DNA of 64,000 bases from Granulibacter bethesdensis CGDNIH1 (GTDB lineage Bacteria; Pseudomonadota; Alphaproteobacteria; Acetobacterales; Acetobacteraceae), in contig NC_008343.2 in assembly GCF_000014285.2 (NCBI RefSeq), positions 2,644,435-2,708,434 of the forward strand, in the 5' to 3' direction. Position numbers and translations under genes: made by a program. The notes beneath the pieces were generated by a model, which made no database searches, was not told where the DNA came from, and saw nothing but the letters and a program-made list of their open reading frames with translations. This document shows positions 1 to 36,688 of this stretch, one piece after another; positions within the stretch are counted from its first letter, which is position 1, and each line of letters starts with the position of its first letter.

Positions 1-1724
1 CAATCCAGCAGATAGCGAATCACAGATGGATCACGCAGCCCATCATCGCTCATGGATTGAAGTCTTTTCCTTAGAATACTTAGAAGTGTCTGTTCCTGTG
101 CGACTCCGTCCAGCACAAGCGTATCAAGAACACCGAACACGGAATTACCGATCAGATAATACCCGATCAGCTGCGGCCCCAATGCGGCATCAATGATATT
201 GTCTGTCCATCGTCCCAACTCTGGCACGTAAGTTCGCAGAGTCTCGATCATATCGGTTGCAATGGCCGTGCCCTGACAATCACGGAACCAGGCCTGTTCG
301 GGCCATCCATTCCGCAGACCAAGCACGACATTCTGCTGATGGGCACTCATCATCACACCATGACGGGCATGGAGATACAGTACCGGTTCCATCAGAATAG
401 AGAGAAAACGGCGAAACCACTCCTCCGCAACATCGGACTGGCTGCGTTTATCGCGTGTAGCGATCATACGGATGATATGGCCGATTCTACTGGGAGCATA
501 CCTGTCGAACAGATCATCCTGACAAAGCGTCGCAAGCATCGCGGCATGACGACCACCCGCATATACGCCCTCTGCTTGATCGGCAAAAGGATTGTCCCTG
601 AATACAACGGAGCTTTCGACCAGAACCTTCCCATCAGGCCCTTTCAGCGACAAATGGGCTGGTTCTTCAATCACTGAAAAACCCTGATAGCGGGCAAAGA
701 CATCCTGCCCGACCGGACCACGCAACAGACGCGCCAGATGCAGGCCGCGATCAAGCTCACGCGGCAAAATTGTACGGATCGAATTGGTAATCCGCATCGA
801 AAGCGAGAATTTCATCATCAATGGAGACTGCGCACTCCATAGACTGCGCAGGGATGCAGTTGCACGGAATTGCGGCCCCATGATACCGAGATCACGAAGT
901 CGATCCTCCATGCGCAGACTGGCAAGTTCGGGCAGGCACAAAAGATGACCGGCTTGCCAGGGATGAACCGGCAACAAGGTCCAGCCTCCCGGAACGGCAT
1001 GCAGTGCTTCCTGACCGGCATCGGTCGATGCAAGCATCTCTTTCAGCAGGGATTGTATGTCGGCCACGTGAACACTGTCGCCAATCATATGATCCGGATG
1101 GACTGCGAACCAGCGTAACGCGAAGCTGTTGCCGTGATCAGGCCCATACGCCGCATCTTCACTTTCAGAGAGGCCTTCACGGAATTTGGGTGCGGGATGA
1201 AACGGATGACCCAGGATCAGCCCCTGTTCCGCCGTGATAAAATCAGGCACCCTGTCTGCCTGATCATCTGTTCTATAGTGATGACTGAGCAAGGCGGCTG
1301 AGACACGTTCGGCACTGTCCATCACGCGTTTTCGGAAAGTCATCCTGGTCGGCAGTGATGCCGTCTGTGCAAAGGCCGTGTGATCCAGCAGAAGATCCAG
1401 CAGCAAACGCACATCCACCGATCGGATGGCACCATGGCGCCTCAGCAAAGGCGGCCCCGCAAATCTGAAACGCCCGGTTTCAGTGGACGCGGCAAGCGGC
1501 AGCAGCAACTCCCCTTCCTGCAACAGAAGGGGAACTGAAATCGCACCTGCCGGACAATGCATATGCGCACCACATCGTGATGCAGCTTCCTGCGGATCGA
1601 GCTTTTTCCAGCCGCGCCATTCACGCAGCAAACCGTTCAGCAATGTCGTCGTCGCCATTCCGGCCTCAAAGTGACGACGTTCAATGCATGCTGACGTATC
1701 GCGGGTTTCCATGGCTTCCAGCAC
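1..1724 (-). CDS. IucA/IucC-family NIS siderophore synthetase (partial, C-terminus outside window)
   Basis: Translating the minus strand gives an uninterrupted frame of about 574 codons that runs off the left edge. It carries the family's ATP/substrate motifs: GHPFHPAPKFREG near residue 170, a later MKFSLSMRITNSIRTILPREL-like stretch, and an HQQN motif. NIS synthetases condense citrate or another carboxylate with amines or alcohols to build siderophores in the cytoplasm. I chose the GTG at 1724 because AAGGG lies 8 nt upstream; an ATG at 1712 is the alternative. The family is usually about 600 residues, so little is missing. It is divergent from an MFS exporter and a FhuF-like reductase, and a Fur-like box lies between. 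The siderophore made cannot be told from this. Confidence 0.9.
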   Translation of the reverse strand, partial: MLEAMETRDTSACIERRHFEAGMATTTLLNGLLREWRGWKKLDPQEAASRCGAHMHCPAGAISVPLLLQEGELLLPLAASTETGRFRFAGPPLLRRHGAIRSVDVRLLLDLLLDHTAFAQTASLPTRMTFRKRVMDSAERVSAALLSHHYRTDDQADRVPDFITAEQGLILGHPFHPAPKFREGLSESEDAAYGPDHGNSFALRWFAVHPDHMIGDSVHVADIQSLLKEMLASTDAGQEALHAVPGGWTLLPVHPWQAGHLLCLPELASLRMEDRLRDLGIMGPQFRATASLRSLWSAQSPLMMKFSLSMRITNSIRTILPRELDRGLHLARLLRGPVGQDVFARYQGFSVIEEPAHLSLKGPDGKVLVESSVVFRDNPFADQAEGVYAGGRHAAMLATLCQDDLFDRYAPSRIGHIIRMIATRDKRSQSDVAEEWFRRFLSILMEPVLYLHARHGVMMSAHQQNVVLGLRNGWPEQAWFRDCQGTAIATDMIETLRTYVPELGRWTDNIIDAALGPQLIGYYLIGNSVFGVLDTLVLDGVAQEQTLLSILRKRLQSMSDDGLRDPSVIRYLLD

Positions 1725-1787
1725 AGGCGTTTCCCTTTCTGTTGCATATCGTGCCGCTTTGCGGAGAATCACCTTGCGGCATATTGC

Positions 1788-1806
1788 AATTGATATTCAT
1801 TCCTAA
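1788..1806. promoter_or_regulatory. Putative Fur box in the divergent siderophore promoter region
   Basis: The stretch ATTGATATTCATTCC matches 11 of 16 aligned positions of the classical GATAATGATAATCATTATC Fur consensus. It sits between the synthetase (start 1724) and the exporter (start 1819), so it could control both. Alphaproteobacterial iron regulators (Fur/Mur, Irr, RirA) differ in preference; which one binds is inference. Confidence 0.45.
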
Positions 1807-1818
1807 TTTAATGCTGAA

Positions 1819-3102
1819 ATGCAACCCCGGAACACCTCCCTCTCTGCGGGCATCAGCCCTGCTGATCCGGCATCGCCCGATGCGATCACTTTGTCGTGCG
1901 CAGATCGCCTCGGCTTTGCTTCGCTTGTCTGCTGTGTAGGGCTGACACAATCATCACTGATTGCATTTTTGCCGATTTTATCGACCAAAACAGGATTATC
2001 GGTTCTGTCACTCGGTATTGTTACCAGTTGTGGAATGCTGGCCATGCTTGGTGGTGCGCCTCTGGCCGGATGGCTGAGCGATCGGGCGGGTCGACGACAG
2101 ACTTTGATGGTCTGCCTTGCTATTTTCTGCGTAGCCCAGCTTTTTCTGGCGGCCATTGTATCGGCTGCGATGAACGGGACTTTATCCCCCTCACTCTGTC
2201 TCTCACTGTTGATGATATGCCGCCTGTTACATGGCATTGCGACAGGCGGCCTGCTTCCAGTGGCACAGGCATGGGTCGCCGATCTGACCGGAATTCAAGG
2301 CCGTATGGCGGGACTTGCAGCCATCAGTGCCGGGTTCAGTGCCGGGCGGCTGGCGGGGCCGTTGCTGGTCTCGGTCACTTTACCACTGGGGGCCACGATG
2401 CCGCTCTGGGTCATGGCGCTGCTGCCATTGCCGCTCGGCAGCATCCTGTTGCACCGCCCGCCCCCGGAAAGCCGTCATAGGAACATCCGGCCCCGATCAG
2501 GGGCTGCCTGCTGGCGCAATCCGGCGATTCTGCGGTTGCTGATATTGGCCGCCATCGTCAACATTGCTTTTGGCACCCTGCATTTCGTGCTTGGCCCCTT
2601 GTTCCAGCAAAGGCTGGGCTGGACTGCACAGATGGCAGGAATCAGGCTGGGCTGGATCACCGCCCTGATGGCAGCCCTGATGCTGGCAAACCAGATGAGC
2701 GTCATTCCCCGGCTGACCGCATGGCCCCGGCACACTCTGGCGGTTGGCATAGCCGTGATCTGGCTCTCCGCACTCTGTCTGACCTGCGGGCAGAGCGTGT
2801 GGAGTCTCGGGGCCGGTGTCTGTCTGCTCGGGCAAGGGCTGGCCTTATCGGGTCCGGCCTGCACGGCCCTGGTCAGCATTGCTGCCGGAGGAAGACAGGG
2901 GGCCGCCTCCGGGCTGTTATCCTCCGTTCTGACGCTGGGATATGCTGCGGGAGCCACGCTGGGCGGTTTTCTGTTCACTTTGGGGGATACATGGCCCGCG
3001 ATGACCGCACTGGTGATCCTGCCGCTGATCCTGCCGTTTTTCCCGCTCCGGGAATCATGGACAAAGCTGTCCGATGAGCGGCAGATAGCAAGCGATGCGT
3101 AA
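1819..3102 (+). CDS. MFS transporter, probable siderophore exporter
   Basis: 427 residues with repeated hydrophobic segments typical of 12-helix major facilitator proteins. The loop 2-3 signature GWLSDRAGRRQ (about residues 84-94) is the classical MFS motif A. It is an inner-membrane carrier, probably driven by the proton gradient. Position, divergent from a NIS synthetase and overlapping a FhuF-like gene by 8 bp, suggests it exports the siderophore. No strong ribosome binding site precedes the ATG at 1819, so a start a little downstream is possible; the first 25 residues are not membrane-like. The substrate is inferred from context only. Confidence 0.85.
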   Translation: MQPRNTSLSAGISPADPASPDAITLSCADRLGFASLVCCVGLTQSSLIAFLPILSTKTGLSVLSLGIVTSCGMLAMLGGAPLAGWLSDRAGRRQTLMVCLAIFCVAQLFLAAIVSAAMNGTLSPSLCLSLLMICRLLHGIATGGLLPVAQAWVADLTGIQGRMAGLAAISAGFSAGRLAGPLLVSVTLPLGATMPLWVMALLPLPLGSILLHRPPPESRHRNIRPRSGAACWRNPAILRLLILAAIVNIAFGTLHFVLGPLFQQRLGWTAQMAGIRLGWITALMAALMLANQMSVIPRLTAWPRHTLAVGIAVIWLSALCLTCGQSVWSLGAGVCLLGQGLALSGPACTALVSIAAGGRQGAASGLLSSVLTLGYAAGATLGGFLFTLGDTWPAMTALVILPLILPFFPLRESWTKLSDERQIASDA

Positions 3103-3853
3103 AGACGAAGACATAGCGGCATGGTGCGAGGCGCGTATGGCCTCTCCCGCCGGGTTTTCTCCGGCAGATGGCGTGGACGTTTCCCTGCTGACACGGCGGG
3201 AGACACTGGCCCCCGGTGTAGAGCGATTCGCCAAAACCCTGCCGGCAGGCGCCGATCCACGTGCCATCGGATCACTCTGGAGCAAGGCCTATACGCGGGC
3301 CGTGCTGCCGCCGCTGTTTATTCTGGCTATTCGGGACGGACGCAACGCTCTCGATCCCGCACAGACCGCGCCACCCGGACTGGTTCTGCTCAAGGATCGC
3401 CCGGATCAGCTGGCGCTGGATGCGGCCACCCTGCCACGTCAAACGCCTGAGCAGATCATGACCATCGCGCTGGGGCAACATATGCAAAGCGTGTTCATCG
3501 CGTTGCGGGACTGCACCGGCCTTTCTCCACGCGTGGCATGGTCCAATGCAGGCAACATGGCCGATTTCCTGTTCCGACGTATGGCCGAAACGCCATCATT
3601 GGCCGATCAGGCCGCACAATATGAGGCCCTGATCATGGAGCCACGGCAGACCCCGTGGTTTCCACACCAGAACTGGCTGCATGCACCGTTGCGAACCGTT
3701 TCCGTCATGCTGGACGGAGAAGCGATTCCGCTGCGCCAGCGCCGGATCTGCTGTCTGCGAGACAAGGTGCCGGGCATGACACTTTGCTCTACCTGCCCCA
3801 GATTATCGGAGGAAGAGCGCCGCGCGCTGGTCGGTCAACGCCACCGCCATTGA
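3095..3853 (+). CDS. FhuF-like siderophore-iron reductase, [2Fe-2S] protein
   Basis: 252 residues. The C-terminus has the FhuF cluster-binding pattern: Cys219-Cys220, ten residues, then Cys231-x2-Cys234 (ICCLRD...LCSTCPR). FhuF-type proteins reduce ferric siderophores in the cytoplasm to release ferrous iron. The start overlaps the last 8 bp of the exporter gene, so the two are probably translationally coupled. Together with the adjacent synthetase this gives a make, export and iron-release set; no TonB-dependent receptor or periplasmic binding protein is visible in the window, though one may lie left of position 1. Confidence 0.85.
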   Translation: MRKDEDIAAWCEARMASPAGFSPADGVDVSLLTRRETLAPGVERFAKTLPAGADPRAIGSLWSKAYTRAVLPPLFILAIRDGRNALDPAQTAPPGLVLLKDRPDQLALDAATLPRQTPEQIMTIALGQHMQSVFIALRDCTGLSPRVAWSNAGNMADFLFRRMAETPSLADQAAQYEALIMEPRQTPWFPHQNWLHAPLRTVSVMLDGEAIPLRQRRICCLRDKVPGMTLCSTCPRLSEEERRALVGQRHRH

Positions 3854-3872: not shown

Positions 3873-4043
3873 TCAGGAAGGCGAAGGATAATGAGCCGCC
3901 GTTTCCAGAGCATGCTCCTCACCCCCTGTTGCATCAGGGGTGCCAAACTGCAGAGTATCGTCCAGTAATCGTGGCTCAGCTGGCCGGTTTGCAGCCATCA
4001 GGCTGACAAGAGTGGCAGTGCCAAGTGAAAAAGTGCGTTCCAT
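3873..4043 (-). CDS. Small hypothetical protein (56 aa) downstream of a Fur-like box
   Basis: A minus-strand frame starts at an ATG (complement of 4041-4043) with GGAG six bases upstream, and ends at TGA at 3873. The product starts MERTFSLGTATLVSLMAANR and ends HYPSPS. It has a short, mildly hydrophobic N-terminus, an acidic middle, no cysteine and no family I recognise. It converges on the FhuF-like gene with a 19-bp gap. A strong Fur-box-like site lies 35-53 bp upstream of its start, so it may be an iron-regulated small protein. It could also be chance: the frame is short and the N-terminus is only weakly signal-like. Confidence 0.45.
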   Translation of the reverse strand: MERTFSLGTATLVSLMAANRPAEPRLLDDTLQFGTPDATGGEEHALETAAHYPSPS

Positions 4044-4077: not shown

Positions 4078-4096
4078 GATAATGATAGTGATTCGC
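4078..4096. promoter_or_regulatory. Fur-box-like site in the 3854-4271 spacer
   Basis: GATAATGATAGTGATTCGC matches the Fur consensus GATAATGATAATCATTATC closely, with its first ten bases identical. It lies 35 bp upstream of the 56-codon minus-strand ORF and 176 bp upstream of the HyfB-like gene. Apart from this site and the small ORF, the spacer 3854-4271 holds only a probable ribosome binding site (AAGGGG at 4259-4264) for the gene at 4272. Confidence 0.55.
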
Positions 4097-4271: not shown

Positions 4272-6362
4272 ATGGCCATTCTGCCCATCCTGCTCTGCGC
4301 CGCCACCTGCCTGGGACTGGCGGGGGAAAGGCTGATGGCTGCACCACCGCGGCAGGATCGTCGGATTCTGCCGGCCCGGCTGAGGCGGCTGGTGCTGTGC
4401 CATATCGTGCTGTGTGCCATGGGGGGTCTATCCTGCCTGTCTGTTCTGCTCGGGGGCGCTTCATGGAATGGAACAGCATGGGTTGGGGGCGCCTTGCCCG
4501 CGCTGGTATCGGATACCATTGCCCTGCGTCTGGGGCTGGACGGATTTTCCGCCTTTACAGCGCTGGCCGGATTTTGTGCGCTCGGGCTGGCCAGCGCCAC
4601 CGGGCTGGATCGACCCGGAGGAGCAGCCACGCGGCTGGCCTTTGTAACAGCCGCGTTGATGCTGACCGTCATGGCGGCCGATGTCATGACACTGGCAGGG
4701 GGCATCGCTTTGCTTTTCGTTGCCCTGTGGGCCTGCCCCACGCATGACGGGGCATCCCCTGACACGGAAACGAACACGTCCAACCCGGCCCATACCGCGC
4801 CCCATTCGGGGAATGCGGCTGCCATTGTGGGAATTCCGCTGCTGATCATCTCTACGGTCATGCTGATGCAGCACGCCTCTCCCGCAGATGGGGGTCCGGT
4901 ACAGGCCGTCGGGTCAGCCCGGCCGCTGGTCTGGATTGCCCTGTTACTGCTGACCATCCTCGTTCTGACGACGATGGTTGCCCTGCGCACGCCTTCCTCC
5001 GGGCGATCCCGGATCGTGACGGAGAAGCACCCTTCCGGGTTGGAACCGACCGCCCCGGACCTTGCTGCCATCACCCTTGCTTTGCCAGTACAGCGCAGCC
5101 CGGCACCGAGCCTCGCCACTCCGGCGCAGATCGTCCGGCCCGCCTTGCAGGTGATTGTGCCGGTTTACCTGCTCGGACGGCTGGGACTCGACTTCCTGCG
5201 TGAGGCTGCGGGACCAGGAGAGAGCACTCCCCTGATGCTGGCCGGAGCGATTCTGGCCATGGCCGGTGGAATCGGCACCTTGCGGGGACGCAGCATTGGC
5301 CGCTGCGTGACCGGAATGGCGGACAGTCAGACCGGCCTTGCGATTCTGGGCTGTGGGCTGGCCGTAGCCGCCATGGCGGTTGATCTGCCCGATCTTGCCA
5401 GCCTTTCCCTGGCTTCCGCCCTGATCATCGTCCTGTCCGCCGCCCTGCTGATGCCAGTGCTGGCAACCGGGGCCACATTGATCGAGGAAGGGGCCGGCAC
5501 CACCATGCTGGACCGGCTTGGCGGCATCATCATCGGGATGCCACGCATCGCCCTGCTGACCGGCGGAGCCTGCCTGGCCAGCGCAATGCTGCCGCCTTCT
5601 CCGCTTTATGCCGGGCGCTGGATGCTGGTTCAGGCCCTGATCGGCGGCCAGAGAATTCAGGATGCCGGTCTGGATGCCTTGCTGACGCTCGGACTGGTCG
5701 CCACGGCGCTGGCCTCGGCGTTGGGGATGGTGGCAGTACTGCGCGTGCTCTGCATCGCCATTCTCGGCCGCCCCCGTGCGCCACGGGCTGCCGCCAGCAC
5801 GGAACCGCGCCGTCCCGCCGGGCTGCGGGCCATGCAGGCAGGGCTTGCGGCCTGTATCGTGGCAGGGCTGATCCCGGGCCCTGTGCTGCACCTTCTGCAC
5901 GGGGCGCTGGCGGCGCTGTGCGGTCATACCATGGATGATCGGACTGGCTGGATCGGTATCAGCGCGCAGGTCGATAGTATGCTGAGCTATACCCCGCTGT
6001 GGATCGCGCTGGCATTGATCTGCGGCACCGTCCTGCTGCTGCGCTTCCTGCACGGGCGACGCAGCACGACCCGCAATGCCGTGCCATGGAATGATGGCGA
6101 TGCGCCGCCGCCGCCCTGGCTGCCCTTCGGCGATCCAGCCACCCAGCCTGACCCTGATTCGGTGGCCGATACTTTTCTGGCCCCGCTGCCGCCTCTGAAA
6201 CCCATCCCGCCGGCCCTGTCCGGCCTGCCTTCACGGCTGTGGATGATGCTGACAGCCACGCTGGGCCGGGCAGAACGTTTCATACCGGCCGGGGCCTCTT
6301 TCGGGCTGCTGGCAGTGCTCTGTCTGTTGCTGGCCATGGCCGCTCTGGAGGCACGGCCATGA
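4272..6362 (+). CDS. HyfB-like (complex I NuoL/antiporter-type) membrane subunit
   Basis: 696 residues, close to the usual HyfB length of about 670, and almost entirely hydrophobic helices, with a polar loop near residues 235-265 and a second polar stretch near 590-640. The assignment rests on length, topology and the gene order that follows (C, E, F, G, I-like). AAGGGG about 7 nt before the ATG supports the start. In the family, conserved membrane lysines and a PFHxWLP motif carry protons; I see no such motif here, and lysine is nearly absent (one in the first polar loop, one in the C-terminal polar region). The stop overlaps the next start (ATGA). The protein is therefore a divergent relative whose proton pathway may be lost or altered. 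Confidence 0.7.
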   Translation: MAILPILLCAATCLGLAGERLMAAPPRQDRRILPARLRRLVLCHIVLCAMGGLSCLSVLLGGASWNGTAWVGGALPALVSDTIALRLGLDGFSAFTALAGFCALGLASATGLDRPGGAATRLAFVTAALMLTVMAADVMTLAGGIALLFVALWACPTHDGASPDTETNTSNPAHTAPHSGNAAAIVGIPLLIISTVMLMQHASPADGGPVQAVGSARPLVWIALLLLTILVLTTMVALRTPSSGRSRIVTEKHPSGLEPTAPDLAAITLALPVQRSPAPSLATPAQIVRPALQVIVPVYLLGRLGLDFLREAAGPGESTPLMLAGAILAMAGGIGTLRGRSIGRCVTGMADSQTGLAILGCGLAVAAMAVDLPDLASLSLASALIIVLSAALLMPVLATGATLIEEGAGTTMLDRLGGIIIGMPRIALLTGGACLASAMLPPSPLYAGRWMLVQALIGGQRIQDAGLDALLTLGLVATALASALGMVAVLRVLCIAILGRPRAPRAAASTEPRRPAGLRAMQAGLAACIVAGLIPGPVLHLLHGALAALCGHTMDDRTGWIGISAQVDSMLSYTPLWIALALICGTVLLLRFLHGRRSTTRNAVPWNDGDAPPPPWLPFGDPATQPDPDSVADTFLAPLPPLKPIPPALSGLPSRLWMMLTATLGRAERFIPAGASFGLLAVLCLLLAMAALEARP

Positions 6363-7285
6363 CGGGAAGTATCTCGGGAAGCTTCTTTTCCCCCGCCCTG
6401 CATATCCTGCTGCTGGCCCTGCTGGCACCGCTGGTGTCCGGGATCATCACCAGCATCCGCATCCGGGCCAATGGCGGCGGCTGGCTGTCGCCCGCAGCGC
6501 CTTACACATGGCTCCGGGCGACGATGAAACACGGCATCGTCATTCCCGCACAGGCAACCAGCCTGTTCATGGTCCTGCCATGCGTCTCCCTGATTGCAAC
6601 CGCGCTGGCCGCTTTCCTGACGCCTTCCTTTCTGATCGACGGCCCTGTGACCGGAGAAGGCGACGCCATCCTCATCCTGGGCCTGCTGTCACTGTCCCTG
6701 ATCGCCAGAATGATGGGGAGCATGGATACGGGGCTGAGCCAGAACAGCATTGGCACGCTGCGACAGGGTGGAGAGGGTCTGTGGATGGAGCTGATTGTGA
6801 CCCTCAGCCTCTCCGCCCTGACGATGCTGGGCGGAAACCCGGTCCTGACAGCCCTGCATACGACCGGGATGATGTCCGGTGGAATCTTGCTGACCTCATT
6901 GCTGCTGCTGCCCGGCCTGTGCCTTGCCGCGCTGGCAGGCGCAGGGATGTTGCGCACGCCATCCGATGACATGCCGCATCTCTCCGGCCCGCTGCTGGCC
7001 ATGGCTTCTTATGAACGGTCCCTGCGTCTGCTGACCTGGATCAGCGTCATGGCGGTCGTTTTTCTGCCTTTTGGCATGATCTCCCTTCAGGCCGGCCTCC
7101 TGCACTGGGGCCTCGCCATTCTGACATGGGGCGGCAAAATCCTGTTTCTGGCCGCTCTGCTGGGTCTGGCGCAGGCGCTGCTGCCTTTTCCGGCGGCTGG
7201 ACGGGGAGCTGCGTTCCTGCTGCTGGGCAGCGTCTTTACCCTTCTGGCCGTCCTGTGCCTTCTGGCGGGACAATATCCGGCATGA
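6359..7285 (+). CDS. HyfC-like (NuoH-type) membrane subunit
   Basis: 308 residues from the ATG that overlaps the previous stop (ATGA); a longer upstream frame exists but would run through the HyfB-like gene. The segment MDTGLSQNSIGTLRQGGEGLW corresponds to the LDTGxxFGGxGxSRE region of HyfC/HycD, and the N-terminal APLVSGIITSIRIR resembles the family's first helix and loop. In hydrogenase-4 and complex I this subunit anchors the catalytic arm to the membrane. About eight hydrophobic helices are visible. It is followed by another ATGA overlap. The quinone- or cluster-facing glutamate/arginine loop appears less conserved than usual. Confidence 0.7.
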   Translation: MTGSISGSFFSPALHILLLALLAPLVSGIITSIRIRANGGGWLSPAAPYTWLRATMKHGIVIPAQATSLFMVLPCVSLIATALAAFLTPSFLIDGPVTGEGDAILILGLLSLSLIARMMGSMDTGLSQNSIGTLRQGGEGLWMELIVTLSLSALTMLGGNPVLTALHTTGMMSGGILLTSLLLLPGLCLAALAGAGMLRTPSDDMPHLSGPLLAMASYERSLRLLTWISVMAVVFLPFGMISLQAGLLHWGLAILTWGGKILFLAALLGLAQALLPFPAAGRGAAFLLLGSVFTLLAVLCLLAGQYPA

Positions 7286-7983
7286 CCATCACACCCGGCA
7301 CCATTTTCATCCCGCTTCTGGCGATGATCCTGCTCTTCGCCATAATCGCCGCGCTCTGCACCCGGCTTCGGGCCGCGCGACAGGCGGTACTGGCTCAAGC
7401 CTTGCTGGTGACAATCGTGGCCGCGGTGAATGCCTCGTTGACGGCTTTCAGTCTGCCTGATCGCCCGGCCTGGCCCATGGCCGGAGTTGCCCTGACGGCG
7501 CTGCTGGCAGGATTGTTTCTGGGACACAGATGGCGGAGCAGGCCGCCTGCCCTGTCATCAGAACCGGATCTCAAAACCGGTCAGTCAACCCTGCCCGATA
7601 CAGTCTGGATGATGGGAACCGGCCTGATTATCGCCCTGGTCGTCTCCGGCGGCATCGGAGTGACGCCTGTTGTCTCTCACGCTCCGGTATCCGCCGCGAC
7701 TCTACCCATAGTCGTGCCCGATCCCGCAACGGTGATCGCCATCAGCCTGACGATGGGGATGCTGTCCCTGCTATGGCTGGCCCGAGATAGCAGGGTTGGT
7801 TTCCTCGGCACGGCCCTGCTTCAGGCCGGGCTGGCAATCGCACTGGTCATGAATGCGCTGGATACTCACCTGCTGATGCCGCTCTATGCCCTGCTGGGTC
7901 TGCTGCCCGCCCTGCTGACGGAAGAAGCCGTCCGCCTTCTGCGCCGGCGGGAAACACGGGCTGAGACGGAGGCTGCACCATGA
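7282..7983 (+). CDS. HyfE-like membrane subunit
   Basis: 233 residues made mostly of hydrophobic helices, with a polar loop around residues 90-110. The start is the ATG overlapping the preceding stop. HyfE proteins are small membrane subunits of hydrogenase-4, related to NuoK/MnhC. The assignment depends on gene order (between HyfC-like and HyfF-like genes), size and topology more than on individual motifs. The C-terminal part, ending in a leucine-rich helix and RRRETRAETEAAP, resembles the positively charged end of HyfE. It overlaps the next gene by ATGA, keeping the operon translationally coupled. Confidence 0.6.
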   Translation: MTITPGTIFIPLLAMILLFAIIAALCTRLRAARQAVLAQALLVTIVAAVNASLTAFSLPDRPAWPMAGVALTALLAGLFLGHRWRSRPPALSSEPDLKTGQSTLPDTVWMMGTGLIIALVVSGGIGVTPVVSHAPVSAATLPIVVPDPATVIAISLTMGMLSLLWLARDSRVGFLGTALLQAGLAIALVMNALDTHLLMPLYALLGLLPALLTEEAVRLLRRRETRAETEAAP

Positions 7984-9377
7984 CGGATCACGCCCCCGAT
8001 TGGCTTTCCCTTCTGACCGATCCGGCATGGTGGCCATGGCTGCTGCCACTGCCGTCGCTGTTGACCGCCGCCCTGAGCATGGCGCTGTCCGGCTGGCGGG
8101 GAGCGGCCTGGGCCGGTCTGGTATCCGCCTGTCTGACGCTAGGGTTAGCAGGGGGGGGGCTGGCAGGAGGGGAAATCGCAGGGGCTACATCGACCGCCAT
8201 GGCATCTGATCCGGCTGCGGGAGGAGCGTTGCTCACGGCCCTGATCAGCGTGATGGCCGCCACATCCTGGCTTGGCTGGTGCGCGGATGAAGTCGCGGCC
8301 ATGCGTATCTCCGTCGCCCGATTGAAAATCCTGGCGGTCGGGCAGCAAACCGCATTGGCGGGCATTCTTCTGGCCTTTGCCCCCTCTCCATGGGCAGGCT
8401 GGGCCGGGATCAGCATCGCCATGGCAGTGCTGACTGTTCTGGCTGCTTTATTCCCCTTTGCGGCCACGTCCCGGCGAGGAGAGACGCTGACAGTCGGTAT
8501 GATGGCCTGTCTGCTGTCCCTGTTCGGCCTGATCATCCTTCAGGGGTCCTCCTCCGGCCATCTTTTCTCCGGACAGGAGCACAGTCTGGTTCCCGCCATG
8601 CCGGGCCTGATCTGCCTCGCCGCCGGGCTGGCCGTTCCTGCCGGCCTCGCCCCGGTGCATCAATGGCTGCGGGAGACCGTCAGCGCCCTGCCACCGCCGG
8701 GACAAGCGCTGATCACCGGCGGGCTGCCTGCTGCCGCCCTGCTGTTCATGCTGAAACAGGCCGCGGCGGGCATGCCGCCTTTTATCTATGGCACGCTGGG
8801 GATTCTCTCCGTGCTGGCCGGTGCGGTGCTGGCGATCCGCTCCAGCGTCACCTTTTCATGGCGCTGGAGCGGGCCACTCTCCTGTCTCGGCGGCGGCTGT
8901 CTGGCGGGTGGGAGTCATGGTCTGCTCTATCCGGCACTCGGGCTGCTGGCCCTGTGCGCCTGTCTGCTGCTCGACGGGCGAGCACGGCAGGTCGGCGCCG
9001 TCTCCGATCATACGCCCTCTCCGCAGGGGCATGGCGGGTTGGATGCATTGCGACTCGCCACTCGTTTCAGTCTGGCGGGACTACCGGGTGGCACTCTCGC
9101 GGGACTGGTCGCCCTGCTGTCCGGGACTGCCCTGACGCATCCTCTTCTGGCCCTGCTGCTGGCGGGCGGGCTTGGAAGCAATGGCTATGCGCTGCTCCGT
9201 CAGGCTCCGATGCTGCGACCCACCCGAAGGCCGCCGCCGCCCTCACGCGCCTGTCTGCCGCTTGATATGACCGCAACCCTGCCCGCCCTGATCCTGCTGC
9301 TGACCGGCATCCTGCTGGGGCTTGGGAATGGGCCATCCCGCTGGTTCGCCTCTGCCGTCGCTGCGGTGACGCAATGA
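7980..9377 (+). CDS. HyfF-like (NuoN/M antiporter-type) membrane subunit
   Basis: 465 residues with many hydrophobic helices. The segment GLAPVHQWLRETVSALPPP (about 222-240) matches the family's PFHxWLPxAHxxAPxP motif in altered form, which supports the call. In working antiporter-like subunits a lysine precedes this motif and another lies in the following helix; here the only lysines are at 116 and 259, so the usual proton-relay lysines around helices 7 and 8 are not visible. A run of nine G at 8150-8158 lies inside the gene and should be checked for assembly error, although the frame stays open. It overlaps both neighbours by ATGA. Confidence 0.7.
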   Translation: MTDHAPDWLSLLTDPAWWPWLLPLPSLLTAALSMALSGWRGAAWAGLVSACLTLGLAGGGLAGGEIAGATSTAMASDPAAGGALLTALISVMAATSWLGWCADEVAAMRISVARLKILAVGQQTALAGILLAFAPSPWAGWAGISIAMAVLTVLAALFPFAATSRRGETLTVGMMACLLSLFGLIILQGSSSGHLFSGQEHSLVPAMPGLICLAAGLAVPAGLAPVHQWLRETVSALPPPGQALITGGLPAAALLFMLKQAAAGMPPFIYGTLGILSVLAGAVLAIRSSVTFSWRWSGPLSCLGGGCLAGGSHGLLYPALGLLALCACLLLDGRARQVGAVSDHTPSPQGHGGLDALRLATRFSLAGLPGGTLAGLVALLSGTALTHPLLALLLAGGLGSNGYALLRQAPMLRPTRRPPPPSRACLPLDMTATLPALILLLTGILLGLGNGPSRWFASAVAAVTQ

Positions 9378-10927
9378 GTCTGGACTCCCTGTTGCAAGGT
9401 GCCGACACCGAGGCCACCCACCACGATGCCGCCACCCATGCCGTGGCACGGAGACTCCTGACCGCCTCCCTTTGGCAGGAGCTGGCAGCCAGCCCCCAGG
9501 CCGGGTTGCTGGCGCTCTGGGCCGATCAGGCGCGCTGCCATGCCTTGTATCGTACCGCGCATGGCATCCTGCCGGTGGCAACCCCGATCGAAGGGGGGCG
9601 CTTCCCCGCGCTTTCCCCTTTTCGTCCCGCCGCCGCATGGCAGGAGCGGGCCATCCGAGATTTATGGGGGTATGAGGCCGAGCACGGCGTGGATAGCCGG
9701 CCATGGCTCGATCACGGCAGATGGCCGATAAGTGCCCCGCTTTCCCCCCGGCCCGGACCGCCTTTGCCACCGCCCGAGCAGGCGGAGTGGCGGATGACCT
9801 CGCCCTTCGCCTCCTCCTTTGTCTCGTCCCGGCCCGATATCGCGCTGCACGAGCGCAGTATCGGGCCTGTTCATCCATTGATGCGGGAGCCGGCACAGTT
9901 GCGCCTGCACCTGCATGGCACCCTCATCCGGCAGGCGGAATGGCGGCTCGGCTATACTCATCGTGGCATCCAGTGGCTGATGCGCGGGAAACCCCTGCGG
10001 GACGCGATCAGGATCGCAGCCCGGATCACCGGAGATGCAGCGCTCGCCCACGGTCTGGCCTTCGCCCGTGCCGCCGAAGCCGCCTTGCGGCTGGAGCCGC
10101 CCCCCCGCGCCCTGCTGCTGCGTGGCCTGATGAATGAGCTGGAACGCTGCGCCGTCCATCTGCATGTCCTTGCCGCCACGGCCAGCGCCGCAGGAGCCGA
10201 CACCTATGCCGCGAAACTGTCCGCATGGCGGGAGCGTCTGTTGCGCGCCATTCAGGAGGCGTTTGGCAATCGCATGATGATCGACCTGCTTATTCCTGGC
10301 GGGGTGCTGACCGATCTTCTGGACGGCACCGCGCTGGAAACAGTCTTGCAGGCCCTCGCCCGCACCATGCCGGAGCTGATCGAAGGCTATGAAACGGCTG
10401 CCAGCCTGAGTGGACATGGACTCTGCGCCTGTCTCCGTGGATGCGCGGTCCTGTCCGGGTCGGATGCTGTTTCCCTCGCCGTGCCTGGCCCCGCCGGACG
10501 CGCATCAGGCCGTCCCCATGACCTGCGCACCACCTGGCAGCAGGCTCCTCATGGCACGGTACACAGGCTGGTGCTGGAAAATGGCGATGCGGATGCCAGA
10601 ATGCGGGTACGGCTGGCCGAAATTCAGGAGAGTCTGCGACTGGCACTGCTGTTCCTGGAGTCCCTGCCGGTCGGACCGATTGCCAATCCCATGCCGATCG
10701 GCACAGGCAATGCCAGCGGAGAAGGGTATGGCGGAGTGGAATCGGCCCGTGGCGCATGCTGGCACTGGCTGCGCATCGAAGGCGGAATGGTGGTCTCTGC
10801 CCATGCGGCCGATCCATCATGGCGGCTGATTCCCGCTATTGAGGCCGCTCTCCCCGGCACCGACATTGATCGGCTGGGGGTGGCACTGGCTTCTTTCGCG
10901 CTCTCGCCCGCCGGGGCTGATCTGTGA
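9374..10927 (+). CDS. HyfG-like large subunit (NuoC-NuoD fusion type) lacking NiFe ligands
   Basis: 517 residues. The N-terminal part has a NuoC-like segment (ERAIRDLWGYEAEHG, about 91-105). The C-terminal part is hydrogenase-large-subunit/NuoD-like: GPVHPLMREPAQLR (164-177), RLGYTHRGIQ (191-200) and NELERCAVHLH. The position of the usual RICGICxNAH motif reads RITGDAALAH (217-226), so both first-pair cysteines are replaced (Thr219, Ala222). The C-terminal DPCxxC pair is also missing; the protein ends FALSPAGADL. It cannot bind a NiFe centre in the known way. This places it with energy-converting hydrogenase-related (Ehr-like) proteins rather than hydrogenases. The frame is intact and it overlaps the HyfF-like gene. 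Confidence 0.8.
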   Translation: MSLDSLLQGADTEATHHDAATHAVARRLLTASLWQELAASPQAGLLALWADQARCHALYRTAHGILPVATPIEGGRFPALSPFRPAAAWQERAIRDLWGYEAEHGVDSRPWLDHGRWPISAPLSPRPGPPLPPPEQAEWRMTSPFASSFVSSRPDIALHERSIGPVHPLMREPAQLRLHLHGTLIRQAEWRLGYTHRGIQWLMRGKPLRDAIRIAARITGDAALAHGLAFARAAEAALRLEPPPRALLLRGLMNELERCAVHLHVLAATASAAGADTYAAKLSAWRERLLRAIQEAFGNRMMIDLLIPGGVLTDLLDGTALETVLQALARTMPELIEGYETAASLSGHGLCACLRGCAVLSGSDAVSLAVPGPAGRASGRPHDLRTTWQQAPHGTVHRLVLENGDADARMRVRLAEIQESLRLALLFLESLPVGPIANPMPIGTGNASGEGYGGVESARGACWHWLRIEGGMVVSAHAADPSWRLIPAIEAALPGTDIDRLGVALASFALSPAGADL

Positions 10928-10934
10928 GGCGCTC

Positions 10935-11459
10935 ATGAGGTGGTTGCCGTCCCTTCGTGCCTCCCATCCCGGGCTGTGGGATGATACCGCCAGCCTGCCG
11001 CATGCGGAAACCGTCGCCGCACTGATAGCCCGACGCAGAAGCAGCGCACGGCCAAAGCTGGGACAGGCCCTGTCCATCCTGCACGTTGAGAGCGGCGGCG
11101 GCAGCGCCTGCCTGCTTGAACTGGAGGCATTGCGCGCCGCGCCCGGCCTGCTGGCCCGTCATGGATTACGGTTTGTCACCTCACCGCTGCATGCCGATAT
11201 CCTGCTGATCACCGGCGATGGCTGCCACAATCTGACGAGCGCCATCCATCAGGCATGGGAGGCGATGCCCGGCCCGCGATGGGCCATCGCCGTCGGTGAC
11301 GGAGCCGCAGGGGATGGTCTGCTGCGTGGAAGCTATGCGAGCACCGGCAATATGGAAGAGATCCCTTTTGATCTGGTCATTCCAGGCAGCCCACCGGCAG
11401 CGGATACAATCCTGTCCGGCCTGCGTGCCCTGGTCGCAGCCAATGCTGATCCGCTCTAG
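10935..11459 (+). CDS. HyfI-like small subunit (NuoB type) lacking most cluster cysteines
   Basis: 174 residues from the ATG at 10935, eight bases after the previous stop; a longer frame from 10839 would overlap the HyfG-like gene. Family landmarks are readable but the [4Fe-4S] ligands are changed: the CNGC site is GSAC (56-59), keeping only the last Cys; GDCA is GDGA (121-124); PGCPP is PGSPP (150-154). The surrounding sequence (HADILLITGDG, MPGPRWAIAVGDG, FDLVIPGSPPAADTIL) is otherwise a normal NuoB/HyfI fold. A standard cluster is therefore unlikely. No HyfH- or HyfA-like ferredoxin gene follows. The operon ends here; 11460-11664 contains no gene I can support. Confidence 0.8.
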   Translation: MRWLPSLRASHPGLWDDTASLPHAETVAALIARRRSSARPKLGQALSILHVESGGGSACLLELEALRAAPGLLARHGLRFVTSPLHADILLITGDGCHNLTSAIHQAWEAMPGPRWAIAVGDGAAGDGLLRGSYASTGNMEEIPFDLVIPGSPPAADTILSGLRALVAANADPL

Positions 11460-35145: not shown

Positions 35146-35766
35146 TCAACCCTGTTTTGGCCACTGAAAACGACGCAGGGTCTGCCGGGCCGCCGCAGCA
35201 TCCCGTGCCAGTGCCATCAGGGAACCTATCTGGGACGGCTGACGCAGAATTGATCCCGCCACCCTGAACACGCCGATCGCACCGGCCTGATCCAGTGCCA
35301 GCAACGCCGCAGGCGGCAGATCCCTGTCCGCCGGATCACACACTGCCCGGACAATCGAAAACGGGATGCCATACCGGGCCGCCACCCGCGCCACCGCCCC
35401 GCTTTCCAGATCAACCGCCCCCGCCCCGGTCTGACGGAAAAGCGCTGCCTTATCCGTCCGGCTGGCCACGACCTGCCGGGTTGCGACCATACGACGCACA
35501 GTCATACCACCCGCCCAGGATGGATCGGTCTGATAAAGGGCCCCTTCCTCAATCAACTCGGCGGGAATCAACAGGGCACCCGGCAGAATGGCCGGATCGA
35601 GGCCACCTGCCAGACCGAAACTGACCAGCCGATCCACACCGCTTTCAACCAGATGAATGGCAGCCCGTTCCGCTCCCTCTGGCTCCCCTCCACCGACCGC
35701 GGCAATACCGAACCCGCGCAGGAGTCTTGCTTCAGCCTGTAAGCCCACGACCACGCCGGTTTTCAT
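35146..35766 (-). CDS. hpnG: HpnG, hopanoid-associated nucleoside phosphorylase
   Basis: 206 residues from the ATG at 35766; the frame continues upstream to 36177 but that part lies antisense to dapB and lacks family sequence. The start MKTGVVVGLQAEARLL and the motifs LVSFGLAGGLDPAILPGALLIP and AVDLESGAVARVAARYGIPFSIVRAVCDPADRDLP match purine-nucleoside/MTA phosphorylase-like HpnG. HpnG removes adenine from adenosylhopane by phosphorolysis, giving phosphoribosyl-hopane. It is convergent with hpnH rather than in one operon, and divergent from dapB (136-bp gap). Confidence 0.92.
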   Translation of the reverse strand: MKTGVVVGLQAEARLLRGFGIAAVGGGEPEGAERAAIHLVESGVDRLVSFGLAGGLDPAILPGALLIPAELIEEGALYQTDPSWAGGMTVRRMVATRQVVASRTDKAALFRQTGAGAVDLESGAVARVAARYGIPFSIVRAVCDPADRDLPPAALLALDQAGAIGVFRVAGSILRQPSQIGSLMALARDAAAARQTLRRFQWPKQG

Positions 35767-35902
35767 AACCGCATCCCGCCTGCATCCTCTGTTCAGGACT
35801 GTTTGAAGCAAAACACGCCCCCTCCGGCAAATACGGCGCATCATAGCCTGCGGGCTTCTGTCCCCTCTCGTCATTCCGTGCAGTCTGTGCCACCACAGGG
35901 TC

Positions 35903-36688
35903 ATGAGCACAGATCGCAGCATACGCATTGGAATTGCCGGCATGGCCGGTCGGATGGGCAGCCTGCTGGTTGAAGAAGCGGCTGCACAGGGTACGGTCTC
36001 CGGGGGAACGCTCCGACCCGGATCAAACAGCCCGGCCCCAGTCGGCATTCCTGCCTTTGCTGATATAAACACGCTGGCTGAAGCTTCCGACGCGGTGATT
36101 GATTTTACCTCCGCCTCCACCGTGCAGGCGCATGCCAGAGCGTTGAGCAAGGCGGGGACGGCATGGATTCTCGGCACGTCCGGCCTTTCCCCTGCCGATG
36201 AAAAGGCTGTCGAGGAAATCGCCGCCCTTGTTCCAGTGGTTTATGCGCCCAATTTCGCGCCGGGGGTCAATCTGGTGCTGGCACTGGCCGAAAAAATGGC
36301 CGCTGCGCTGCCCGGTAACCGCTATGATGCCGAAATCGTGGAAATGCACCATCGCCGCAAGATCGATTCACCCTCCGGCACGGCCATTGGTCTGGGCCGC
36401 GCGGTGGCCGCCGGTCGCGGTGTGATGCTGGAGGAAGTGATCGAAAGCGGCCGGCACGGGCATGTCGGACCGCGGCAGCCTGGCGCCATCGGCTTTGCGG
36501 CCCTGCGGGGCGGCCAGGTCGTCGGCGAACACACCCTGCTGTTTGCCGCTGATGACGAGCATATCGCCCTGACCCACCGCGCCTTCGACCGTCGTGCTTT
36601 CGCGCGCGGTGCGGTGCAGGCAGCCTTATGGGTGCAGGGTAAGCCGCCCGGATTGTATTCAATGATGGATGTACTGGGCATGCGCTGA
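35903..36688 (+). CDS. dapB: 4-hydroxy-tetrahydrodipicolinate reductase
   Basis: 261 residues. The nucleotide-binding motif is IRIGIAGMAGRMGSLL, and the active-site signature EMHHRRKIDSPSGTA (about 151-165) is diagnostic. FAPGVNLVLALAEKMA and the C-terminal GLYSMMDVLGMR also match. DapB reduces the dihydrodipicolinate precursor with NAD(P)H in lysine and diaminopimelate synthesis. It is 14 bp before murJ, so the two peptidoglycan-linked genes are probably co-transcribed. The nearby start codon at 35903 comes straight after a short spacer with no strong ribosome binding site. Confidence 0.96.
   Translation: MSTDRSIRIGIAGMAGRMGSLLVEEAAAQGTVSGGTLRPGSNSPAPVGIPAFADINTLAEASDAVIDFTSASTVQAHARALSKAGTAWILGTSGLSPADEKAVEEIAALVPVVYAPNFAPGVNLVLALAEKMAAALPGNRYDAEIVEMHHRRKIDSPSGTAIGLGRAVAAGRGVMLEEVIESGRHGHVGPRQPGAIGFAALRGGQVVGEHTLLFAADDEHIALTHRAFDRRAFARGAVQAALWVQGKPPGLYSMMDVLGMR

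Follow-up and report, generated by a model that had tools for sequence, protein, structure and literature searches.

A six-gene complex I-like operon of Granulibacter bethesdensis with neither [NiFe] ligands nor a full set of N2-type cluster ligands

Introduction

The window analysed here is a stretch of 64,000 nucleotides from the Granulibacter bethesdensis CGDNIH1 genome (contig NC_008343.2, positions 2,644,435 to 2,708,434), and the locus in question is a six-gene hydrogenase-4-like operon at 4272-11459 of that window, with the genes named hyfB, hyfC, hyfE, hyfF, hyfG and hyfI. It raises the question of what selection is keeping in a membrane complex whose catalytic subunits have lost nearly all of their metal-binding cysteines. 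A preliminary description, made from the sequence alone, had read six open genes in the order B, C, E, F, G and I-like, and this layout is confirmed. By its sequence the operon is of Ehr type and related to both complex I and the group 4 hydrogenases. Ligand residues have been lost, HyfG is conserved, the reading frames are open and the ratio of nonsynonymous to synonymous substitution rates (dN/dS) lies below 1. The favoured reading, held at about even confidence, is a retained pseudo-complex, silent in redox and in pumping; HyfG would be its useful component, anchored by the membrane arm, and the whole a predicted membrane-bound scaffold.

As far as the available parts of the literature go, Ehr complexes without [NiFe] cysteines are described for Nitrospira, Riflemargulisbacteria and the candidate phyla radiation, and their role is given as untested or hypothesised except for Mbx, which is cited as a ferredoxin:NADP+ oxidoreductase.

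Ligands of the redox centres

The ligand positions of the N2-type cluster in the small subunit HyfI (residues 56, 59, 123 and 152) read G-C-G-S against C-C-C-C in its relatives, leaving C59 as the sole retained ligand. N2 is the name of the corresponding cluster in complex I. The preliminary description had counted three of four [4Fe-4S] cysteines as replaced, which is correct, with G, G and S at residues 56, 123 and 152. All three sampled genomes of the genus show the G-C-G-S pattern. A set of 109 small subunits was aligned. Eight of them are identical copies, one (L048) is a true hydrogenase, and part of the set represents the best 30 of 235 matching genomes' loci, a choice that favours intact cysteines; 98 rows read C-C-C-C and one is cut off after C-C-C. 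Four rows read G-C-G-S, namely this HyfI, the proteins of the two other genomes of the genus and the protein cluster that matches it, and in this alignment the pattern is confined to the genus. S-C-C-C is found in two rows, both copies of one G003 sequence, and the four ferredoxin-fused rows read D-E-D-S or D-E-S-S. HyfI keeps 16 of the 21 columns that are conserved at 95% or more in the 100 other rows, and three of its five losses are the cluster cysteines. Both C59 and C97 are invariant across the three genomes of the genus, and His98 is not conserved. The HyfI structure model has a predicted local distance difference test (pLDDT) score of 83 and a predicted template modelling score of 0.82, with HycG of formate hydrogenlyase as its best fold match; the lowest ten-residue block of the model (131-140, at 57) adjoins the lost third ligand, 123. 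Orthologues with intact cysteines exist at about 42-47% identity to HyfI, and a match to HyfI at a threshold of 1e-36 is present in 235 of 299 family genomes.

In the large subunit HyfG, residues 219-222 are TGDA and the C-terminal end is SFALSPAGADL, so that both [NiFe] cysteine pairs are missing, as had been read from the TGDA at the CxxC site and the absent C-terminal DPCxxC. The true [NiFe] enzyme L048, used as a positive control, carries RVCGIC and DPCYSC at these sites. The HyfG relatives compared number 119, being the 120 among the matches listed, of 1248, minus the cluster of HyfG itself. All 119 lack a cysteine at either CxxC position and at 511 and 514 and have no CxxC between residues 214 and 229 or within the final 25 residues, and 42 of them carry a cysteine one position earlier, at 510. 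Since the [NiFe] loss is common to every relative among the matches listed, it is the ordinary Ehr condition and lies outside the novelty of this operon; of the cysteine losses first presented as an oddity, that of the N2-type site stands as a fixed feature of the genus. HyfG otherwise keeps 100 of 112 columns conserved at 95%, including 36 of 38 ionizable ones; on the same columns nine canonical loci keep 91-112 and seven acetic-acid-type loci 64-80, with some of these loci identical or near to the rows that define the columns (L053 and P0013 at zero branch length). A CxCx3C at HyfG 351-357 was considered as a new metal site and rejected, its middle cysteine (C353) being R in G002.

No ferredoxin-type motif occurs in the operon, and a six-frame scan of the window gave one match, at 35927, which is broken by a stop. 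Pfam and motif scans likewise found no ferredoxin or flavoprotein gene within the operon. In the relatives' stretches, convincing ferredoxin motifs occur only in the true hydrogenase L048, and the single matches that small open reading frames (ORFs) yield in L043 and L055 appear to be coincidental. The reported lack of a HyfA/HyfH ferredoxin subunit is therefore real and common to the sampled Ehr relatives. HypD, the sole Hyp gene tested, had no match in the genome (0 of 1), where the control finds HypD in 4 of 14 genomes. With the N2-type ligands gone as well as the [NiFe] ligands, the operon has no visible redox centre, as the preliminary description held. Outside the operon, the genome encodes another NuoD- and NuoB-type pair.

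Operon layout and subunit identity

The genes had been described as mostly ATGA-overlapped. This is true of the junctions from hyfB to hyfG and not of hyfI, whose start lies 7 bases beyond the stop of hyfG. HyfG matches PF00346 (3e-23), PF00374 (3e-10) and, weakly, PF00329, as a fusion of NuoC and NuoD/large-subunit domains, and its nearest PDB match is E. coli HycE (7z0s). HyfI matches the NuoB-like family PF01058 (3e-12), with HycG as its nearest PDB match. For HyfF there is a weak match to Proton_antipo_M (0.0013, below the cut-off), a BLAST match to one relative (27%, 2e-6) and a structure model that matches MrpD, NuoM and NuoN by fold (template modelling score about 0.7). No Pfam family was matched by HyfB, HyfC or HyfE in the search of the operon proteins. 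HyfB residues 295-609 match the NCBIfam model for hydrogenase 4 subunit B (1e-32, under the model's own cut-off), and HyfC gives a weak NCBIfam match to NuoH and matches the HyfC proteins of relatives at up to 2e-16. Homology is shown by sequence or fold for five subunits and by position alone for HyfE.

The operon is present and open in the two further genomes of the genus, which makes a sequencing error, raised earlier as a possible cause, very unlikely. In-frame length changes among the three genomes fall in loops of HyfB, HyfC and HyfF. The HyfB of G002 has an expanded PTHDG repeat relative to the other genomes, in the loop after residue 155 that follows the region of transmembrane helix 5 (TM5).

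Membrane arm

The membrane subunits were compared with nine loci that have canonical operons; one locus, L058, gave no match for B, C, E or F. Of the columns that are invariant and ionizable in this reference, HyfB keeps 6 of 23, HyfC 8 of 25, HyfE 3 of 13 and HyfF 3 of 19, in sum 20 of 80, against 117 of 299 for the other invariant columns (Fisher p 0.025). The lost channel columns are E146, K254, K295 and E449 in HyfB, where the TM12 His/Lys column is also not kept, and E145, K220 and E376 in HyfF. These are presumably the TM5 Glu, TM7 Lys and TM12 Glu of both subunits and the TM8 Lys of HyfB. In HyfE, the Glu of the SLENGL motif is Q in the alignment.

Counts of lysine, which are independent of alignment, agree: HyfB has 2 in total against 4-10 in eight relatives, and HyfF has 2 against 5-8. 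Buried lysines number 0-1 in all nine HyfB rows of the genus and the acetic-acid-type loci against 3-4 in canonical members, and 0-1 in eight of nine HyfF rows (L045 has 4) against 2-5; this operon has one at most in each subunit. The density of buried ionizable residues was rejected as a measure of stripping by itself, at 5.1-8.6 per 100 residues for HyfB and 3.8-9.7 for HyfF, overlapping the canonical 7.0-10.6. The acetic-acid-type rows of both measures include this genus, and buried lysine alone separates the groups. The suggestion that the complex couples ion movement to something else is not supported, because the channel Lys and Glu are gone from both HyfB and HyfF.

Selection on the operon

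No in-frame stop occurs in the six genes across the three genomes of the genus, where neutral simulation on the three-branch tree (300 runs) gave a mean of 37 stops and a minimum of 22. Pairwise dN/dS values by the NG86 method are 0.09-0.39 per gene, with upper bootstrap limits of 0.15-0.84; the highest limit is that of HyfI, and none reaches 1. All six genes are thus under purifying selection, and the picture of a selected, Ehr-like operon is upheld; with open frames and dN/dS below 1 the genes are not pseudogenes. The flanking ORFs of the same window have median dN/dS of 0.087 (38 ORFs) and 0.081 (43 ORFs) after filtering for coverage >0.9 and dS >0.03, a set that still contains some likely spurious ORFs. 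HyfG, at 0.094 and 0.117, falls between the flank median and the upper quartile. Several spurious-looking ORFs of the window give values greater than 1, and some of these contain stops.

A genus that keeps the N2 ligands (G034 against G143 and G266, with dS of 0.6-1.2 and all four HyfI cysteines seen in G034) gave dN/dS of 0.04-0.09 for HyfI, 0.08-0.10 for HyfG and 0.08-0.19 for the membrane genes. HyfI is less constrained with its cluster gone, yet it is not free.

Relatives and order of loss

In the HyfG tree, whose rows are family members without [NiFe] cysteines and do not include the published Ehr reference set, the genus and seven acetic-acid-type Ehr loci form one clade (99/99), although long branches call for caution. 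In members of this clade the membrane subunits are diverged, in many cases short, and poor in buried lysines. Because these related operons have few buried lysines yet keep the cluster cysteines, the pump was probably lost first and the cluster later. On the simplest order, the channel residues would have been lost in the common ancestor and the cluster afterwards in this genus; G003 would have lost one ligand independently.

Across several genera (L043-L047, L049 and L050), the acetic-acid-type membrane subunits are barely or not recognised by Pfam (5 tested, 1 weak match). In G003, G010 and G024 (L067, L069 and L070), HyfI is encoded at a site separate from the operon, and the G003 protein lacks the first of the four cluster cysteines. 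The same family also holds a true group 4 [NiFe] hydrogenase operon with ferredoxin subunits (L048, in the 1.9-Mb genome G031).

A class of ferredoxin-fused NuoB-like proteins (P0143-P0264) has lost all four N2 cysteines in 122 of 122 members among the matches listed, 119 of them reading D-E-D-S. This set was collected with a profile of cluster-less sequences and consists of the 120 among the matches listed, of 4640, plus P0143 and P0146. Three members are named as Solirubrobacteraceae, and the N-terminal ferredoxin-type cysteines are retained. The conserved carboxylates of the class could hold another metal. Loss of N2 by itself is therefore not unique to Granulibacter.

Discussion

The operon resembles Ehr complexes in its large subunit, which is like that of group 4 hydrogenases and lacks the [NiFe] cysteines, in its antiporter-like subunits and in its grouping in the HyfG tree. 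It differs in that the Nitrospirota small subunit keeps all four N2 ligands and that 16 of 17 distinct relatives' small subunits do the same, the remaining one having lost one, whereas three are lost here; canonical members also retain the channel Lys and Glu that HyfB and HyfF do not. The N2 ligands are usual for Ehr, perhaps not defining. The acetic-acid-type loci share the HyfG clade, the few buried lysines and purifying selection (one genus tested), but keep their N2 cysteines except for the one lost in G003, have HyfI unlinked in three genomes and show a less conserved HyfG. Like HyfI, the ferredoxin-HyfI fusion class has no N2 cysteines, but its replacement is acidic, it carries ferredoxin-type cysteines and it represents a separate loss in another lineage. 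With hydrogenase-4 and formate hydrogenlyase of E. coli (7z0s; PMC9474812, in the part available) the operon shares gene order, subunit homology and the best PDB matches of HyfG and HyfI, and it differs in having no [NiFe] ligands, no full set of proximal cluster ligands, no ferredoxin subunits and no HypD found. It lacks the two large-subunit CxxC pairs that mark a group 4 [NiFe] hydrogenase (Hyf/Hyc) and that L048 carries, and the operon has neither the tandem-cysteine N2 site nor the NADH module of respiratory complex I.

The closest functional parallel is a laboratory mutant. The available part of the account of Yarrowia lipolytica complex I with NDUFS2-R121M describes a variant without N2 at the same interface that assembles in native-like form and has no quinone reductase activity (PMC8042128). 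That variant has its other clusters and a reduced content, and the cysteines here were lost in nature. HyfG and HyfI may likewise still dock without the cluster, as in N2-less Yarrowia complex I (PMC8042128), and would sit on an inert membrane arm. The HyfG-centred soluble module would then be the useful part, held at the membrane and binding a predicted partner or ligand. The lack of a visible electron-transfer centre and of HypD, the inactivity of N2-less Yarrowia complex I and the good HyfI model together favour a pseudo-complex of this kind. A more specific version, put forward tentatively, is a natural pseudo-complex with full soluble and membrane arms and no redox centre or proton channel, selected for a role outside energy conversion, possibly in iron supply; the possible tie to iron comes from the siderophore cluster and conserved Fur-box-like site that adjoin the operon.

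The main rival, with a smaller but real share of the probability, is a slowly decaying Ehr operon in which cofactor and pump were lost, selection relaxed and the frames survived intact, either through the youth of the genus or through the harm that broken subunits would do. The dN/dS of HyfI and the membrane genes lies in the upper tail of the window, as early decay would give, and HyfI constraint is clearly weaker than in the N2-keeping genus (0.29-0.39 against 0.04-0.09). Of the 149 columns conserved at 90%, HyfG departs from 27, where the relatives' median is 4 and their maximum 16, and the in-frame loop changes of HyfB, HyfC and HyfF also suit decay. Against this stand the absence of any stop where neutral drift predicts 37, the dN/dS of HyfG, which stays below the upper quartile of the flanks, the values above 1 and the stops in spurious-looking ORFs of the same window, and the retention of all six genes in 3/3 genomes. 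The preliminary description had proposed that cysteine-intact orthologues together with relaxed selection would mark the operon as decaying; such orthologues and a weaker constraint on HyfI were found, and every gene nevertheless has dN/dS below 1. An active redox complex with another cofactor, such as a bound quinone or flavin, or a metal that HyfI C59 and C97 share with residues of HyfG, appears improbable. The invariance of the two cysteines and the conserved ionizable residues of HyfG speak for it, but a pair of cysteines does not by itself form a usual Fe-S site, neither His98 nor HyfG C353 is conserved, and the operon carries no ferredoxin or flavoprotein gene. The HyfG changes are also somewhat enriched near the former active site, at 9 of 27 conserved columns in residues 185-226 against 18 of 122 elsewhere (Fisher p 0.049, for a region picked after inspection of the change list). 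Least probable of all is that the complex couples ion flow or a conformational change to another process: the antiporter-like subunits and the antiporter fold of the HyfF model would suit it, and the lost channel columns and scarce lysines argue against it.

Beyond these rivals, several observations weigh against the pseudo-complex. With C59 and C97 retained, a different cofactor is conceivable, and the N2-less Yarrowia variants reach just about 25-40% of normal complex content in membranes, according to the part of that report available (PMC8042128). The HyfF model is moderate (pLDDT 61), profiles of the relatives' HyfE and HyfF missed this operon's proteins at 1e-5, and identity to relatives is low (HyfF 21-29%, HyfC about 26-33% locally), so that part of the counted membrane-arm losses may be misalignment. 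A conserved genomic partner was sought and rejected, as no neighbour type of the relatives was among the tested neighbours of this operon (MFS, FhuF and DUF3126).

No account of Ehr in Acetobacteraceae was found in the literature search, and at title and abstract level no pseudo-enzyme of the complex I/hydrogenase superfamily. The literature searched gave no description of an operon that has lost the cluster, lacks any other redox domain, has a stripped membrane arm and is still under selection. If the pump was lost, then the last cluster, and the operon was kept, as is probable, the locus separates what selection keeps (HyfG and, seemingly, assembly) from the presumed essentials of Ehr complexes, namely redox and ion coupling, so that the purpose of these complexes can be asked directly. 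It also opens the question of whether complex I-like assemblies can persist as pseudo-enzymes.

Genomic surroundings

Features of the operon and its upstream region are collected in Table 1. The upstream siderophore cluster comprises two IucA/IucC synthetases, an acetyltransferase, an ornithine/lysine monooxygenase, a transporter of the major facilitator superfamily (MFS) type and a FhuF-type reductase.

Table 1. Coordinates of the operon genes and neighbouring features, in window positions
Feature	Position	Strand	Description	dN/dS
hyfB	4272-6362	+	HyfB/NuoL-like antiporter-type membrane subunit, 696 amino acids	0.21-0.24
hyfC	6359-7285	+	HyfC/NuoH-like membrane anchor, 308 amino acids	0.25-0.38
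hyfE	7282-7983	+	HyfE-like membrane subunit, 233 amino acids, very diverged, named by position	0.25-0.39
hyfF	7980-9377	+	HyfF/NuoM-N/MrpD-like membrane subunit, 465 amino acids	0.22-0.34
hyfG	9374-10927	+	NuoC-like plus NuoD/large-subunit-like, 517 amino acids, best conserved subunit	0.09-0.14
hyfI	10935-11459	+	NuoB/small-subunit-like, 174 amino acids, ATG start	0.29-0.39
IucA/IucC synthetase	-120..1772	-	Siderophore cluster	
IucA/IucC synthetase	-3037..-1151	-	Siderophore cluster	
Acetyltransferase	-1163..3		PF13523, siderophore cluster (window 1-3853 and L148)	
Ornithine/lysine monooxygenase	-4362..-2983		PF13434, siderophore cluster (window 1-3853 and L148)	
MFS	1819-3102		MFS-type transporter, upstream of hyfB	
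FhuF	3095-3853		FhuF-type reductase, upstream of hyfB	
56-amino-acid ORF	3873-4043	-	Conserved in three genus genomes; start about 35 bases from Fur-like site	
Fur-box-like site	4078-4096	+	15/19 to presumed consensus, best score of the window; identical in 3/3 genus genomes	

The Fur-box-like site lies between FhuF and hyfB, about 175 bases before hyfB. It was scored against what we take to be the Fur consensus, and 0.05 sites of this score are expected per 64 kb (20 shuffles). It could serve hyfB or the 56-amino-acid ORF on the minus strand, and since it may belong to the latter, the link between operon and iron is put forward as a hypothesis.

An aldo/keto reductase-like ORF precedes HyfB in four acetic-acid-type loci (L044-L047), and the other loci of this type have HolC-like, PepA-like or TonB-receptor-like neighbours, as read from translations. 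Canonical Ehr loci have methyltransferase, luciferase-like, HMGL-like and CoA-transferase genes nearby (Pfam). Elsewhere in the window, an ORF of the PF01048 phosphorylase superfamily (35146-36177, minus strand) carries two to three in-frame stops in both other genomes of the genus, with dN/dS of 0.23-0.24.

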